From Bradyrhizobium sp. G127 (lineage in GTDB: Bacteria; Pseudomonadota; Alphaproteobacteria; Rhizobiales; Xanthobacteraceae): DNA of 64,000 nucleotides. Below the pieces are notes generated by a model. The model had not been told where the DNA came from and did not search any database. It worked only from the letters and a program-made list of their open reading frames with translations. The DNA is taken from contig NZ_JAKFGN010000002.1 of the NCBI RefSeq assembly GCF_021502575.1, positions 868,001 through 932,000 of the forward strand. Direction: 5' to 3'. Below are positions 17,876 to 53,101 of this stretch, one piece after another. The number at the start of each line of letters is the position of its first letter. The stretch's first letter is position 1. Made by a program: the position numbers and the translations under genes.

Positions 17876-18358
17876 ATGACAAAACGCATCGCATTTTTCC
17901 GATTTCCGGCATTCGCCGCCGCGCTCGTGCTGGCCGTGGCCGCGCTCGGCGCGAACCCTGCCCGCGCCGACCGCTGCGACGATCTGGCCAAGGACCTTGC
18001 GGCGCAGATCCCGGGCCTCAAGATCGGAAAGACGGTCGCCGGCGTGATCTATCTCGAACACCCTGCGGTGACGCAGGCCTCGCTCGGCTGCCAGAGCCGC
18101 AACCGCAGCAACGACGTGTTCGCCTCCACCGACAAGCGAAAACCCGCCCCGGAATTTTACGACTTCATCGGCACCGCGGCGGCGCTGGTGTTCACCATCC
18201 CGAAGAAAGATGCCCAGCGCGGCGCGGAACGCTGCGTCCAGCGCACCAACATCGTGCGCGGGTACAATCTGGATTCACGCTACCGCCGCCTCGACATCCA
18301 CTGCACGGTCGCCAAGACCGGCGTGCGGATCACGATGTCGCGGGAAAAGGGTGTGTGA
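17876..18358 (+). CDS. Small exported protein with four cysteines, unknown function
   Basis: A 160-residue protein. Its first 31 residues form a signal peptide (FAAALVLAVAALGANPARA, cleavage before DRC). The mature part has four Cys residues (DRCDD, LGCQSRN, ERCVQ, IHCTV), which suggests two disulfides in the periplasm. No named family is recognised. The ATG at 17876 follows GGGGGAAACC and places the signal peptide at the N-terminus; longer in-frame starts run through repeat sequence. It ends 23 bases before the A+T-rich pYEATS-like gene, which differs strongly in base use. Confidence 0.7.
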   Translation: MTKRIAFFRFPAFAAALVLAVAALGANPARADRCDDLAKDLAAQIPGLKIGKTVAGVIYLEHPAVTQASLGCQSRNRSNDVFASTDKRKPAPEFYDFIGTAAALVFTIPKKDAQRGAERCVQRTNIVRGYNLDSRYRRLDIHCTVAKTGVRITMSREKGV

Positions 18359-18381
18359 GGAGTGAGCTTTAGGATTTCGAT

Positions 18382-19059
18382 ATGACTGAATTTAACAATT
18401 TTTTGACGGCTCTTTCCGGATTTGCTTGGCCAGGACTGATTTTCTCATTCGGTTTTTATTTCCGTAGCGAGATAAGATCACTTTATCTTCAATTCCAACG
18501 TCAACTCGCCTCGGGCGCCGCGTTGAAATGGAAAGATTTTGAATTTCGAGCAATCCAGATTGACCCTTTAGATTTACGAGATGGGACCGAATACGTTCAG
18601 GAGCCCGCTGACAAAGAATTCCTTGATAAGCGCCATAAGAGCTATCAAGCAAACAAGAATTTGTTTCTAGTGCATCGCGTACGACCTTCCGGCCAAGTTC
18701 ATCCATTCAACGATCTGCCAACCTATGACATTACCGTTTATATTCTTTCTCACAAAAATTTTGGACACCTAAACGATGTAAAGGAAGTTCACTACTATTT
18801 CGGCCAACATTTTGGTCTGAGAAAAAATGAATACGGGACGAAATTCATAGTAAAGAATGGCACGAACAACTTTGCTGTCCGCACCAACGCTTACGGTCCT
18901 ACATTGTGCGAGGCACGGATTATCTTCCACGATGGCGGCGAAACAAATGTTAGTCGGTACTTAGATTTCGAGGGAACGGGCTACCGATTTAGTTCTGCAA
19001 CCAACAATAGCGATATAGAAAAAATAAGAACTCGAAGTGAAAATATCAGCGATTTCTAA
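18382..19059 (+). CDS. Membrane-anchored pYEATS-like domain protein
   Basis: A 225-residue protein. A single hydrophobic helix (about residues 8-28, GFAWPGLIFSFGFYF) is followed by a basic stretch and a cytoplasmic domain. Residues about 92-195 show the prokaryotic YEATS (pYEATS) pattern: FLVHRVRP, YDITVYILSHK, DVKEVHYYFGQHFG, AYGPTLCEARIIF and RYLDFE. Prokaryotic YEATS domains are predicted immunity/conflict-system sensor modules, but a biochemical role is not established. The gene is visibly richer in A+T than all neighbours and uses many AT-ending codons, suggesting transfer. It is followed after 14 bases by a HigA-type gene, probably in one operon. The domain assignment is from memory of the family pattern. 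Confidence 0.7.
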   Translation: MTEFNNFLTALSGFAWPGLIFSFGFYFRSEIRSLYLQFQRQLASGAALKWKDFEFRAIQIDPLDLRDGTEYVQEPADKEFLDKRHKSYQANKNLFLVHRVRPSGQVHPFNDLPTYDITVYILSHKNFGHLNDVKEVHYYFGQHFGLRKNEYGTKFIVKNGTNNFAVRTNAYGPTLCEARIIFHDGGETNVSRYLDFEGTGYRFSSATNNSDIEKIRTRSENISDF

Positions 19060-19073
19060 CTTGAGTTTGCGAC

Positions 19074-19382
19074 ATGACAAAAAACCTGCCGCCGATGCAT
19101 CCGGGCGAGGTTCTTCGTGAGGAATTCCTGATTCCGCTCGGCATGTCCGCGGGTAAACTCGCGAAGGCCTGCGGCCTGCCCCGCACACGCATCGAGCGGC
19201 TCGTCAACGAGCAGACCGGCATTACCGCCGATACGGCCTTGCGGCTGGGTCGCGCATTGAAAACCACCGCCGACTTCTGGATGAATCTTCAGAATCGCTG
19301 TGACATACGGGTAGCCGCGCGCGAGATCGGACCGGAACTCAAAAAGATCAAGCCTGTGATCGAAGAAGATGAAGCAGCCTGA
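19074..19382 (+). CDS. higA: HigA family antitoxin / HTH protein without adjacent toxin
   Basis: A 102-residue HTH_XRE protein of the HigA (VapI-like) group: MHPGEVLREEFLIPLGMSAG at the start, the HTH at about 24-55, and ALRLGRALKTTADFWMNLQN after it. In classical modules higB (a RelE-like RNase of about 90 residues) lies directly upstream. Here the upstream gene is the pYEATS-like membrane protein, and nothing RelE-like is seen on either strand nearby. So it is an orphan antitoxin, or the partner of the preceding gene. The base composition returns to the genomic norm here. A long structured repeat follows. Confidence 0.85.
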   Translation: MTKNLPPMHPGEVLREEFLIPLGMSAGKLAKACGLPRTRIERLVNEQTGITADTALRLGRALKTTADFWMNLQNRCDIRVAAREIGPELKKIKPVIEEDEAA

Positions 19383-19460
19383 CCGGTGCCTGCTACTATC
19401 GCTGTTCATCAACATTAAATCTTGAGGGATACAAATCCCCGCCCTCCAAACCTCTCTTAT

Positions 19461-19930
19461 GTTCGGCATGTCCCGCCCCACATTGAGGGGCGTTCGCGAT
19501 CGTCACGATACGCGGGGCGGGATGCGGTGGCCGCTTGCGGCGTCCGATCCGGCACATGAAAAGTGCGCCGGATGACGACAGCGCAGCTCGCGGACGGCTG
19601 AAGTCGCGTGGTCCTGGCGCCGCGATGCTGGCGTCGAAAGGAAATAGCGAGTCGTCGCTTCGTTCGCGAAGGTGGCGAAAGATCGTAGTTTCCAGAGCGG
19701 TGGCGAAAGAGCCCGTCCACCGGGGAGAGCGCGAAACAGGCCGTTCCAACCATTGCGTGCGGAACGCCGGATGCAACCGGCGTGACCGTGGCGACTATGC
19801 TCGTGTGCTTTTTACTTTTGCACACGGGGCTGCGGATGCGCACGCGCATCCGGCGTTCCGCGCGCCCTCATCGGGTGCAAGGCGCATGAGAAGACCGGGC
19901 GCCCCCGCGCCGTCACAACAACAGGGGCGA
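19461..19930. repeat. Long structured intergenic repeat
   Basis: A ~470-bp non-coding segment in a 734-bp gap between genes. It contains a perfect 16-bp inverted repeat (GCGGAACGCCGGATGC at 19759-19774, complement at 19846-19861). Inside this is a smaller hairpin, GTGTGC / GCACAC (19803-19808, 19820-19825), with a T-rich loop. The leading part has GTCACGATACGCGGGG. I recall this pattern as a dispersed repeat in Bradyrhizobium-type genomes. Short open frames cross it but none looks protein-like. The rest of the gap, 19383-19460 and 19931-20116, shows nothing I can assign. Confidence 0.6.
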
Positions 19931-20116
19931 TGACGTGTGGCTGTTTGAAATTTGAATCGGGAGCGACGCAGCCGAGAGTTCCCTCCCCGCGCTCACACCC
20001 GCTTAACCATGCGAACGGGCCGCAAAAACCGTCACAATCGCGCATGAACCAAGTGGTAACGTCCCGCGACTAAGAGACGGCTCTAACAAGAGACGTTCAG
20101 GTCGCGCGAGGCGGAC

Positions 20117-20430: not shown

Positions 20431-20778
20431 CTACGCCGCGACGCAGCTCTTCACATAAACCCGGCGCGCCGAGCCGCGCAGCTTCTGGTCGATAGCCTGC
20501 TTGAGGCATTCCACCCTCGCCTGCGCCACGCACAGCTGCATCTGGTCGCGCGCCTGATGGCGGCCGAGGTGTTTGGTCGCAACGGTCTGGCGGCAGCTCT
20601 CGCGCTTGCCGACCCGCGTGGCGGGCTGCGACTTGCCGTCGGCGGGCACGGCATACGCGATCTTCGCGCCTTCCGGCGGCGCGGACGCGATCGCGTTCGG
20701 CAGCGGGTTCTGCGCAATGGCGATGTAGATGGCGCCGCCAAGCAGTGCGGCGTAGATCGCGGGGGTGACGATGCGCAT
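20431..20778 (-). CDS. Small exported / membrane-anchored protein, unknown function
   Basis: A 115-residue protein. Residues 1-21 (MRIVTPAIYAALLGGAIYIA) form a signal anchor or signal peptide. The mature part has four Cys (ESCRQ, QLCVA, VECLK, KSCVA), suggesting disulfide bonding in the periplasm. GCAGGAGGACCG precedes the ATG at 20778 and fixes the start. No known family is recognised. Confidence 0.7.
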   Translation of the reverse strand: MRIVTPAIYAALLGGAIYIAIAQNPLPNAIASAPPEGAKIAYAVPADGKSQPATRVGKRESCRQTVATKHLGRHQARDQMQLCVAQARVECLKQAIDQKLRGSARRVYVKSCVAA

Positions 20779-20902
20779 CGGTCCTCCTGCTGCGTGTGGG
20801 TGATGACGGACCAGACAGTCCGAATGCGACAGCAATGCGGCAGGCCGGGCGATTCGGGAACCCGCCGCACGCGCACGGCGGCATCACAAAACGCGGAGAC
20901 GA

Positions 20903-49365: not shown

Positions 49366-49731
49366 CTAGCTTTGCTTTGCGTAGGCCGTCTCGAGCGACT
49401 GGGCGCCGGTGGCGGGGTTCGTCATCACGGTCTTGATCTGCGCCGTGCCCTGCTTGGTCAGGGTGAATTTCGAATCGCCGATCCTGAAGGCGTTGTCGCG
49501 GATCAGAACGTCCTGGTACTTCGTCGTGCTGCCGCTCTGGTATCGCACCTTGGCGCGAAATCCGACGACGTTTGAAACCTGGATACTGAACGAGTCGTTG
49601 TTGGCATACTTGCCGGTCCAGTTGCCCTCATAGCTAGCGGCATCGACGGGAACGTAAGGGCCCTTCGAATAATTGACGTTCGATCCGACCGTCACATAGT
49701 TCGCCGATATGATGCCCAGAAGATCAGCCAC
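49366..49731 (-). CDS. Small protein of the flagellin cluster, unknown function
   Basis: A 121-residue protein predicted to be beta-rich, without a signal peptide. Segments are YEGNWTGKYANNDSFSIQVSNVVGFRAKVRYQSGSTTKYQD and DSKFTLTKQGTAQIKTVMTNPATGAQSLETAY. The start is a GTG at 49731, 20 bases after the flaF stop, so it is probably the last gene of the flagellin-flbT-flaF unit. I do not recognise a family. Its product might be an exported or filament-associated component, but this is a guess from position. Confidence 0.6.
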   Translation of the reverse strand: MADLLGIISANYVTVGSNVNYSKGPYVPVDAASYEGNWTGKYANNDSFSIQVSNVVGFRAKVRYQSGSTTKYQDVLIRDNAFRIGDSKFTLTKQGTAQIKTVMTNPATGAQSLETAYAKQS

Positions 49732-49751
49732 GGTCCGGCCTCAAGTATTCA

Positions 49752-50117
49752 TCAGGCGCGGCCGGACAGCCCCGCCGCAAGATTGCAGTTGATGTCGATC
49801 AGTGGCTTCAGCTTCTCGCGCTGCGGATTGAGCTGCAATTCCATCGTCTGCGTCATAACGAAGGTGCCGATATTGACGATGTTCTGACGGACCTCGATGG
49901 TCTGTGGATTCTCGTCGCTGGTGACCGCGCTCAGCAGGATTGCCCAGAGCTTGCGATTGAACAGCAGCGCCGCGGCGAAATCGTCGTCGGTGCGGCCGAG
50001 GTTGTTCATGACGTCCATCAGCTTGTTGGCAGCTTTCAGAAGCGCCTGCGCTTCGATCTCCCGGGGAGACGCCGTCGTTTGAGCAGTACGTGCATAAGCC
50101 TGAGCGGCGTTCGACAT
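49752..50117 (-). CDS. flaF: Flagellin synthesis facilitator FlaF
   Basis: A 121-residue protein matching FlaF: AQAYARTAQTTASPREIEAQALLKAANKLMDV, LFNRKLWAILLSAVTSDENPQTIEVRQNIVNIGTFVM. In Caulobacter FlaF is needed for flagellin translation/secretion and acts together with FlbT. It follows flbT after 3 bases. Confidence 0.93.
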   Translation of the reverse strand: MSNAAQAYARTAQTTASPREIEAQALLKAANKLMDVMNNLGRTDDDFAAALLFNRKLWAILLSAVTSDENPQTIEVRQNIVNIGTFVMTQTMELQLNPQREKLKPLIDINCNLAAGLSGRA

Positions 50118-50120
50118 TCA

Positions 50121-50501
50121 TTACCTCGACAGGAGTTCGTCTTCGCGACTTATCAGTTTCCTGATTTCTCTTAGAGCTTTGTAAAGATCACCGCTTAAAA
50201 TAAGATTACTTGCCGTTTCCAGAGGCACACGAAAGCTCGGCACCGCTTCGAGCATATCCTTGACGAAGCCGAGATACAGCTCCTGATATTTCGGAATGTC
50301 GTTCTCGAGATACATCTGCTGAACGCAAAGATAGATTCGCTTGACCGGCGTGTTGGCGGTCTCCGCCGTCAGAATATCCTTTTCACGCAGGATCGGCGTT
50401 TCGCCATCGATCAGAAACGTTGCGCGCGTTTCCGAATTGGTGATGACGCTCTGGCCAATCACGATGCGTTCAAAAGGCTTGAGTTCGACTCTGAGGGCCA
50501 C
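50121..50501 (-). CDS. flbT: Flagellin mRNA regulator FlbT (copy 1)
   Basis: A 126-residue protein. It begins VALRVELKPFERIVIGQSVITNSE and has FLIDGETPILREKDILTAETANTPVKRIYLCVQQMYL, typical of FlbT, which binds flagellin mRNA leaders and represses translation or destabilises the message. A GTG start at 50501, after GGAGACAGAAC, is used because it aligns with the family N-terminus; an upstream TTG adds unrelated residues. A second flbT lies at 56071. Confidence 0.92.
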   Translation of the reverse strand: MALRVELKPFERIVIGQSVITNSETRATFLIDGETPILREKDILTAETANTPVKRIYLCVQQMYLENDIPKYQELYLGFVKDMLEAVPSFRVPLETASNLILSGDLYKALREIRKLISREDELLSR

Positions 50502-50604
50502 GTTCTGTCTCCATAACAATCGTCGGCGTCTCCAGACGACCTCCCGGTCAATTCAATTTTCGTAAAATAAATCCATTTCTTCTTGGATGGACTGATCCTC
50601 GCCA

Positions 50605-50637
50605 TAAAAAAAGCAGCGGGGTTTTATCCCCGCTGCT
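50605..50637 (-). terminator. Terminator of flagellin gene 1
   Basis: On the minus strand AGCAGCGGGG / CCCCGCTGCT is a 10-bp stem with a 6-base loop, followed by seven T residues, 23 bases after the stop. It separates the flagellin from flbT. Confidence 0.9.
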
Positions 50638-50659
50638 GTATTGCGATCGGGTTAATCGA

Positions 50660-53101
50660 TTACTGCCGCAGGAGCTGGAGCACGCTCTGCTGCGACTGGT
50701 TGGCCAGAGCCAGCGCGGACACCGCGATCGACTGGCGGGTCGCCAGGGCCTGGCTGTTCGCCGCTTCCTCGTTGGTATCGGCGACCGTCAGATTTGCCGA
50801 ACCGGTCTGCAGCACGTTGATCAGGTTCTTCGAGAAATCCTGTCGGATCTGCACGATCGACAGGTTCGAGCCGAGCGTCGATGCCTGCGAACGCAGGAAG
50901 CTGCCGGCGCTGTTGAGTGCGGACAGGATCTTGTTGGTCGAGGCGTTGTCGATAAAGTCAGTGCCCTTGACCAGCATGCCGAGTCCGAGACCAGCTGGAT
51001 CGAGCGCAGTGCCAGCGATGTTCAGCGTGGACTTGCCGGTTTCATTGAATACCAGCTTGAGCTGATCGCCAGCGAGCAGGTTGACGCCGTTGAACGATGC
51101 GTCCTGCGATGTCGTCCGGATCTGGTCGATGATGTTGTTGTACTGCGCCACCAGGCCCGCGCGCGTGGCCTGCGAGGTCGCATCGGCCGATGTGCCGACG
51201 ACGGTCACGCCCGCAAAGGCGTTGCCGGGATCGGTGGCCGTTCCGCCGATCACCGCAATGTTAGACGATGCGGCATCGTTGGTCGTGGTCAGATTGATCT
51301 GGCCCGTGGTGCTGACGCTGGCCTGCAGGTTGTTGGCCGACAGCGCGGCATTAAGCTGATCGAGAGTCGAGACCTGGTTTGCGCCCGTACCGAAGGTGAT
51401 GTTGGTTGGCGTACCGCCACCGGTCGAGCCGATGGTCAATGTCAGGCCGTTGAGGCCGGTCGTGGCTGCCGTGCTTGCCGGCGTGGTGCCGGCCACGAGG
51501 CCGATCTTTGCCAGACCGGAGCCGCTGATGACGAGGTTTGCAGCGGTGCTGGCCACCAGCGTGGCCCTGCCGCTGACGACGGCCGATCCACTACCACCGC
51601 TGTAAGCGTCGATAGCACCGAGCACATCGGCCACCGTTGAGGTCGTGATGTCGATCGACAGGTTGCCGGCCGCCGCCGTACCCGTGTTGCCGGCGCCGGA
51701 GTTGAAGGAGATGGTCTTGCCGTTGACGACGATGGTATCGCCGGTGTTGAAAGCCGTGGTCAGGGAATTGGTGCCGACGCCGCCCGTCAGGGTGGTGGTG
51801 TTGTCGATCGGGGCACCCGTCACGGGAGTCGCTGTGCGAGGGGTAGTGCCGGCGATAAGGCCAAGCTTGGCCAGACCCGAACCGCTGGTGATCAGATCAG
51901 CAGTGGTGCCGGTGCTAAGCGTGATAGCGCCGGTGGTCGGATCGATCGCCGACGTGCCCCCGCTATAGGCGTTGATGGCGGTCAAAACCTGCTGAACAGT
52001 CCCCGACGTGATGTCGATCGAGAGGTTGCCGGCACCCGCCGTACCGGTATTGCCGCCACCCGAATGGAATGAAAGGGTCTGGCCATTGACTACGATGGTG
52101 TCAGCGGTGGTGAAGGCTGTCGGCAGCGCGTCCGAGCTTGGGGTCGCGACGCCGGCAATTTGAGTCGTTGCGGTAATCGCAGCCGGGGTCGGAGCCGCGT
52201 TGGTGCGCGGGGTGGTCGCCGCGGACAGACCGAGCTTGGCCAGAGCTGTACCAGCGAGCGTCAGATCGGAGGTCGTGCCGGTGTTCAGCGTGATCGCGCC
52301 GGCGTTGAACGTCGCCGCCGCGCCGCCGCTGATGGCGTCGATCGCGTCGATCACATCCTGCACGTCGCCGGTGGTGATGTCGATCGACAGCGTGCCTGCC
52401 GTCGCCGAACCCGTGGTGCCCGAGCCGGAGTTGAACGCAATGCTGGTGCCGTTGACGGTCAGGGTATCGAGCGCGGTGAAGTTGGTCGACAGGTTGTCCG
52501 AGGCGGCACCCGCGACGCCGGCCAGCTTGGTCGCGCCGGTGATGCCGACGGCGGTGGTCGTGTTGTCGTTCAGCACCACTGAACCCGGGACCGCAACGCT
52601 CTGATAGGCGCCGAGGTGGTTGTTGTTGAGCGGAGTGCCGGGAGCGGCGGCAGCCGCTGTGTACGAAATAGTATTGTTGTTGGTCTGTGTGGTACCGGCC
52701 ACGGTACTGGCGGATCCGCCGGCCGTCGCCAGCAGATTCGCGGCCGTAACGTTGGGCAGAGCCGCCGACACTGCCGTCGACTTGGTGTAGCCGACGTTGG
52801 TCTGAAGCGCCTGATTGGCGACCGACTTTGCACTGTCGATGAGCTTCTGGAGCGAGGTGATGCCGGTGTTGGCAGCCTGCAGAACCTGCACGCCGTTGCC
52901 GATGCCGTCGAGGAGGTTATTGATGTCGCTGGCGCGGCTGTCGAGGTTGGCCGCCGTGAAGTAGTTGGTCGGATTGTCGAGCGCCGAATTGACCTTCTTG
53001 CCCGTTGCCAGCCGGTTCTGGGTGGTGGCCAGCAAATCCGCCGTTGCCTGAAGCGACAGCAGGTTCTGGCGAACTGACGCTGAAAGAACGATGTCGGACA
53101 T
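50660..53101 (-). CDS. fliC: Very large flagellin (copy 1)
   Basis: An 813-residue flagellin. Residues 1-120 carry the N-terminal D0/D1 domain (MSDIVLSASVRQNLLSLQATADLLATTQNRLATGKKVNSALDNPTNYFTAANLDSRASDINNLLDGI begins with it). The last 120 residues carry the C-terminal D0/D1 domain ending QQSVLQLLRQ. Between about 195 and 590 lie three copies of a ~115-residue module with the pattern DTLTVNG / LSIDIT / AIDAxSGG / LAKLGL. Most flagellins are 270-550 residues, so the insert is large. A second flagellin follows upstream with related modules. The leader has an overlapping pair of CtrA-type sites and an inverted repeat. It has its own terminator. Confidence 0.95.
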   Translation of the reverse strand: MSDIVLSASVRQNLLSLQATADLLATTQNRLATGKKVNSALDNPTNYFTAANLDSRASDINNLLDGIGNGVQVLQAANTGITSLQKLIDSAKSVANQALQTNVGYTKSTAVSAALPNVTAANLLATAGGSASTVAGTTQTNNNTISYTAAAAAPGTPLNNNHLGAYQSVAVPGSVVLNDNTTTAVGITGATKLAGVAGAASDNLSTNFTALDTLTVNGTSIAFNSGSGTTGSATAGTLSIDITTGDVQDVIDAIDAISGGAAATFNAGAITLNTGTTSDLTLAGTALAKLGLSAATTPRTNAAPTPAAITATTQIAGVATPSSDALPTAFTTADTIVVNGQTLSFHSGGGNTGTAGAGNLSIDITSGTVQQVLTAINAYSGGTSAIDPTTGAITLSTGTTADLITSGSGLAKLGLIAGTTPRTATPVTGAPIDNTTTLTGGVGTNSLTTAFNTGDTIVVNGKTISFNSGAGNTGTAAAGNLSIDITTSTVADVLGAIDAYSGGSGSAVVSGRATLVASTAANLVISGSGLAKIGLVAGTTPASTAATTGLNGLTLTIGSTGGGTPTNITFGTGANQVSTLDQLNAALSANNLQASVSTTGQINLTTTNDAASSNIAVIGGTATDPGNAFAGVTVVGTSADATSQATRAGLVAQYNNIIDQIRTTSQDASFNGVNLLAGDQLKLVFNETGKSTLNIAGTALDPAGLGLGMLVKGTDFIDNASTNKILSALNSAGSFLRSQASTLGSNLSIVQIRQDFSKNLINVLQTGSANLTVADTNEEAANSQALATRQSIAVSALALANQSQQSVLQLLRQ

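Follow-up and report, generated by a model that had tools for sequence, protein, structure and literature searches.

A putatively membrane-anchored, stand-alone pYEATS gene beside an orphan HigA gene at a compact replacement hotspot of Bradyrhizobium sp. G127

The DNA analysed here, hereafter the window, is a stretch of 64,000 nucleotides from Bradyrhizobium sp. G127. It contains two neighbouring genes on the forward strand, separated by 14 bases, which an earlier sequence-only reading had delimited as we find them (Table 1). That reading proposed that a pYEATS-like membrane gene and a HigA-type antitoxin gene either form a two-gene module, in which the pYEATS protein replaces the toxin, or are two accessory pieces that lie together. 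Here we examine the pYEATS family, the genomic site and the HigA gene in order to identify which of these arrangements explains the locus.

Table 1. Features of the window and occupants of the corresponding interval in related genomes
Feature	Positions	Strand	Basis or remark
Conserved 160-aa gene, left border of hotspot	17876..18358	+	In 28/29 genus genomes; N-terminal signal-like stretch (by eye)
pYEATS and HigA block missing from G019	18357..19403	.	blastn homology stops at 18356, resumes at 19404
pYEATS gene	18382..19059	+	225 aa, 42% GC; PF20305 match and composition
N-terminal hydrophobic helix, residues 7-25	18400..18456	+	Hydropathy, window copy and 30 homologs
Conserved juxtamembrane stretch, residues 41-54 (QLASGAALKWKDFE)	18502..18543	+	Alignment A1
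pYEATS domain, residues 115-195	18724..18966	+	Pfam match
Near-invariant aromatic F144 of pYEATS domain	18811..18813	+	Alignment
Near-invariant aromatic Y171 of pYEATS domain	18892..18894	+	Alignment
Orphan HigA-type antitoxin gene	19074..19382	+	102 aa; TIGR02607 E 2.1e-31; no PF05015 HigB in genome
Conserved gene, right border of hotspot	20434..20835	-	In 27/29 genus genomes
Window occupant			pYEATS
G005 occupant			200-aa protein, weak phage-endonuclease match (PHROG E 2e-4)
G013 occupant			SIR2_2-like, E 3.2e-4, below cut-off
G001 occupant			Weak UDG-like protein, E 0.017, below cut-off
G014 occupant			121-aa protein without family assignment
G015 occupant			DUF3644 (2e-40) / PDC-S19 (PADLOC 3.5e-57)
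G018 occupant			TIR (Pfam TIR_2 7.5e-15; PADLOC PDC-S66 2.1e-39, ThsB 9.1e-27)
G026 occupant			117-aa gene near contig end, without family assignment
G017, G016 intervals			16 and 74 bp between flanks
G028, G027, G020 intervals			GC-richer DNA; G020 with Y1 transposase
G023 occupant (outside clade, more distant)			DUF2971 (8.9e-6) / PDC-S31 (3.7e-25)

The pYEATS-like domain suggested from sequence alone is borne out by a Pfam profile search, in which the protein matches PF20305 with an E-value of 4.8e-12 and 46 bits, above the curated cut-off of 26.9. A single hydrophobic stretch is present in the window copy. Its 19-residue Kyte-Doolittle mean of 1.45 is weak by itself; N-terminal hydropathy is at least 1.6 in 23 of the 30 aligned homologs, so that the single membrane helix also stands. 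Conservation was evaluated in an alignment of 113 rows, consisting of 111 long proteins (own copy included), the G1283 protein and a piece of the G149 protein. The domain retains F144 as F in 110 rows and Y171 as Y in 111, whereas the juxtamembrane stretch retains G45 in 111, K49 in 108 and E54 in 109. The ORF is a genuine gene rather than a chance ORF, since a protein search finds 116 homologs, pN/pS against the G399 copy is 0.17 (with synonymous sites saturated) and 31 columns are invariant among the 31 sequences of alignment A1.

The sharp contrast in base use claimed earlier holds for the pYEATS gene, with 42% GC against 59-65% GC in its neighbours. Its GC and GC3 are 0.419 and 0.416, against 0.652 and 0.832 for the gene upstream and 0.589 and 0.689 for HigA. 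The pYEATS gene is sharply foreign-looking; the HigA gene has an intermediate composition, closer to the local style. Elsewhere in the window a second GC dip, to about 0.54, spans positions 49500-51000.

In YEATS readers the acyl-lysine is sandwiched by a pair of aromatic residues, F62/W81 in Taf14 and F59/Y78 in AF9 (PMC6212594). A sequence search of solved structures gave no pYEATS relative (best E-value 0.52, unrelated chains). A second pYEATS protein, from G149, touches the eukaryotic YEATS model at an E-value of 0.0096, below the cut-off of that model. F144 and Y171 align with YEATS-like residues of this G149 protein in one MAFFT run, and the register of F144 differs in another. By motif, F144 and Y171 may correspond to the cage positions of Taf14 and AF9. 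Their conservation would fit, without proving, an acyl-lysine cage like either of these two, because many other columns are equally conserved.

The G149 gene (L087:8772-9551, minus strand) adjoins a long ORF with parts that by eye resemble a trypsin-like protease and an endonuclease/phosphatase, and its surroundings are perhaps a multi-gene conflict locus. Another match, in G088 (L034, E-value 6.4e-6, residues 4-65), was dropped from the pYEATS counts for want of a Pfam match at an E-value of 0.01. This 249-aa protein (L034:958-1707, minus strand) shares only the layout of the N-terminal membrane segment (AWP...FR) with the family, which may point to one kind of anchor fused to different domains.

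A profile search yielded 145 pYEATS homologs; 120 of these and the protein search together gave 126 proteins, 111 of them at least 185 aa long. Among genomes the family is rare. Among the 61 nearest relatives the only carrier is the own genome, as it is in the samples of the order (1/397) and the class (1/385). Three of the 391 genomes of the family sample matched, the weak G088 case and two with full matches, own genome included; the Bradyrhizobium-like genus has three carriers in 223, one of them with a truncated copy. The family, order, class and genus samples overlap. A looser PF20305 search returned 2/198. In a scan of named genomes the single protein query led to no confirmed pYEATS locus and alignment A1 as query led to three. 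The pYEATS protein matches neither PADLOC nor PHROGs, and a phage or plasmid origin was considered and set aside, the protein having no match in the phage, plasmid or viral-contig collections.

The two genes lie between conserved borders. In G019, the nearest relative, with a right-flank gene 97% identical, 371 bp of unrelated DNA replace them; tblastn finds neither pYEATS nor HigA in this interval, and where both lie it has no other long ORF. Besides the own genome, 25 relatives were compared across the interval, with G025 left out and with G002 and G006 lacking one or both flanks. In four of the 25 (G009, G015, G018 and G026) the flanks are on different contigs, and the interval is open-ended there. 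With an identity of at least 77% in the upstream protein as the limit, 14 genomes remain, own included, and 8 of these have A+T-rich occupants (GC 0.42-0.48); in G018 the A+T-rich DNA reaches the end of its contig and is at least 4.8 kb long. Most other, distant genomes have GC-typical DNA in the interval. By tblastn no occupant is a remnant of another, and the sole gene to recur is a GIY-YIG gene of G001, in G014. With conserved flanks, variable occupants, some of them of defence families, and some empty sites, the interval is a replacement hotspot.

Two further observations concern its structure. Positions 19471-19960 of the window form a GC-rich intergenic stretch with very conserved blocks. 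In many relatives pieces of it recur near the right border of the hotspot, and it may belong to a family of repeats or serve gene exchange as a substrate for recombination. The hotspot of G027 (L053) contains a partial second copy of the 3' end of the upstream gene, which could mark exchange by flank duplication.

Ten hotspot proteins, a set that excluded the 247-aa gene of G009 and a 128-aa gene of G027, were compared with PADLOC. Three of them fall below an E-value of 1e-20 (PDC-S66, PDC-S19 and PDC-S31) and seven do not; the occupants without a defence match include the Y1 transposase and the 121-aa and 117-aa genes. Among 20 control genes of the window none is below 1e-15; a helix-turn-helix protein comes closest, at 7e-11. 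Fisher's one-sided test gives p = 0.03, which rises to 0.037 if pYEATS is added as a further non-match. This enrichment lends modest support to a defence content of the hotspot, as the cut-off was chosen after the results were seen and the controls are few and consist mostly of resident genes.

The HigA protein scores 107.6 bits with TIGR02607 (cut-off 47.7) and also matches HTH_3. A search with PF05015 found no HigB in the own genome (0/1), whereas the same query was positive in 4 of 14 control genomes; RelE (PF05016) was outside this search. Remnants of HigB were likewise not found in the window interval by tblastn with the HigB of G009. Within the reach of PF05015, HigA is as solitary as it had been described, and the pYEATS gene occupies the toxin position.

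Two relatives bear on the history of this gene. In G009 the upstream gene is followed by the GC-typical gene of 247 aa, then by HigB (PF05015, 7.6e-20) and by a HigA 81% identical to that of the window; the right border of G009 is on a separate contig. G005 has a HigA that is 78% identical to the window's and whose frame is disturbed near the start, behind the unrelated A+T-rich gene of 200 aa. A tree of 20 rows, built from 20 of the 27 HigA matches after seven weaker or broken rows were left out, unites the three hotspot HigAs in one group (94/85). Other HigAs of the genus sit elsewhere, several behind HigB-like ORFs as judged by eye. Since HigAs of this group recur downstream of that conserved gene, in G009 behind HigB and in G005 behind an unrelated gene, HigA is most likely older at the site than pYEATS, and HigB was most likely lost when the slot was refilled. 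The lack of both genes in G019 counts against this order, and a single two-gene cassette would leave the same pattern.

Such a cassette could be a toxin-antitoxin-like pair, with a membrane pYEATS protein in the place of HigB that is neutralised or repressed by HigA. The toxin-then-antitoxin order is that of higBA, the gap is short, both genes are missing from G019 and HigA is intact, with pN/pS of 0.18 against the G009 HigA (and an omega of 0.10 that includes the time spent with HigB). The G005 HigA, behind another A+T-rich gene, is placed as a partner-swapping antitoxin might be. We nevertheless judge this pair improbable. That same G005 HigA has a damaged frame, and the unlike base use of pYEATS and HigA argues against a recent joint arrival. 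Furthermore, the pair does not recur at five other pYEATS loci, in G399 (L082), Bradyrhizobium sp. WSM3983 (L029, with L090 of G1218 counted as the same locus), an Acetobacteraceae MAG (L030), Rhizobium alarense (L031) and G1283 (L091). In 10-19 kb per locus blastp detected no HigA- or HigB-like ORF of at least 60 aa at any of the five, and neither this search nor inspection by eye revealed a recurring second gene beside pYEATS.

The two-gene module of the sequence-only reading is thus not supported. The HigA of the site follows the same upstream gene elsewhere with other partners, and the absence of HigA from all five loci, few as they are, approaches the situation that reading had named as telling against the module, homologs never adjacent elsewhere. 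Its alternative, two accessory pieces lying together, gains support and becomes more precise, in that the site exchanges A+T-rich genes, several of them of defence-candidate families.

HigA could still be active in another way. Being intact and 14 bp from pYEATS, it is likely cotranscribed with it, and, although not an antitoxin for pYEATS, it might keep its predicted DNA binding and autoregulate the cotranscribed pair or regulate another locus. Its HTH_3 and TIGR02607 matches and the missing HigB agree with such a role, but five other pYEATS genes manage without HigA, and we consider it unlikely.

The five loci also bear on a metabolic reading. At L031 (6658-9286) and L091 (4554-6766) distant pYEATS homologs lie directly behind pdhC, the pyruvate dehydrogenase E2 gene. 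At L031 the pYEATS gene overlaps the start and stop codons of its neighbours on both sides and the preceding gene has E2 domains; at L091 lpdA lies behind the pYEATS gene. In the Bradyrhizobium-like genus (31 genomes searched) the pdhC-lpdA gap is shorter than 460 bp, and hence too short for a pYEATS gene, in 28 of 30 loci. Only two gaps exceed 700 bp, and that of G1283, which holds the pYEATS gene, is among them; the idea that this gap is another busy hotspot was dropped. The co-location with pdhC may be coincidental, may stem from a preferred site of insertion, or may mean that the genes are functionally linked. In the last case pYEATS would be associated with pyruvate dehydrogenase and not with defence, as an accessory gene that regulates acyl metabolism or the state of the membrane, and the rarity of a gap wide enough for the gene speaks in its favour. 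We hold this to be quite doubtful, however, as three of the five loci and the window copy are located elsewhere and a sporadic, partly decayed distribution fits a metabolic role poorly. Two of the five loci are broken, WSM3983 matching from residue 70 only and L030 lacking a single open frame, a pattern of gain and loss as in accessory genes.

The pYEATS domain (PF20305) was reportedly named by Burroughs and Aravind (2020, J Bacteriol), who saw in it the sensor of immune systems predicted in prokaryotes, so the prediction of an immune sensor is itself not new. The window protein agrees with it in a match above the curated cut-off, in near-invariant aromatics and in the predicted sensor role. 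The present gene differs in carrying this domain by itself behind an N-terminal hydrophobic helix, and no second gene recurs beside pYEATS at the five other loci. From the HigBA type II toxin-antitoxin systems the locus has the TIGR02607 HigA, whose same-group counterpart in G009 has HigB in front of it at the same site; it differs in having the pYEATS gene there, in a genome without PF05015. The fixed flanks, the variable occupants, some of them of defence families, and the empty sites in some genomes resemble defence hotspots between core genes, such as those of E. coli (PMC10121019, 2023). The E. coli islands are there defined as having at least ten genes, whereas the A+T-rich part of the present site usually comprises no more than one or two genes in about 1.3 kb, G018 being the exception. 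PDC-S19, PDC-S66 and PDC-S31 relatives in the same slot of other genus genomes link the site to the PADLOC PDC-S families, PDC standing for phage defence candidate (PMC11514479), although pYEATS itself matches no PADLOC model. Literature searches on pYEATS or prokaryotic YEATS found nothing, and as far as such searches reach the compact hotspot with a stand-alone membrane pYEATS gene among its occupants is new.

Taken together, pYEATS is probably a horizontally acquired, single-gene, membrane-anchored conflict module at a hotspot, beside a leftover HigA. The domain, the conserved plan, the composition, the sporadic spread, the hotspot, the defence-like co-occupants and the HigA group at the site are observed; the order of events, the defence role, the ligand and the effect on the membrane are what we infer rather than see directly. 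The pYEATS gene would have arrived horizontally and landed just downstream of the conserved left-border gene, where HigA would be an earlier resident that remained after the loss of HigB and not the cognate antitoxin of pYEATS. The N-terminal helix would anchor the protein at the inner membrane, and the domain may sense a ligand, either an acyl-lysine as in YEATS readers or some other small modified molecule; activation would then damage the membrane or signal through it. A conflict role of pYEATS itself is likely, and we lean slightly towards phage defence as that role, although the failure of pYEATS to match PADLOC, PHROGs or the phage and plasmid collections and the occupants free of defence matches weigh against it. 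A bolder version, to which we give very little credence, makes it a one-gene immune sensor that is anchored in the membrane and reads acylated lysines, or lipoyl- or acetyl-lysine on pyruvate dehydrogenase E2, reports a phage-induced change in central metabolism and then attacks the inner membrane.

The locus cautions that adjacency alone is insufficient for naming a toxin-antitoxin pair. What had appeared as an odd gene pair becomes a testable prediction, that of a compact hotspot which swaps mostly single A+T-rich genes. The stand-alone pYEATS protein, of about 220 residues, is a candidate anti-phage gene product whose cloning and assay would be simple. Binding of acylated lysine by pYEATS at the membrane, should it occur, would connect YEATS readers with bacterial immunity, and a one-gene acylation-reading immune sensor, if true, would be a bacterial counterpart in immunity of the eukaryotic YEATS chromatin readers.
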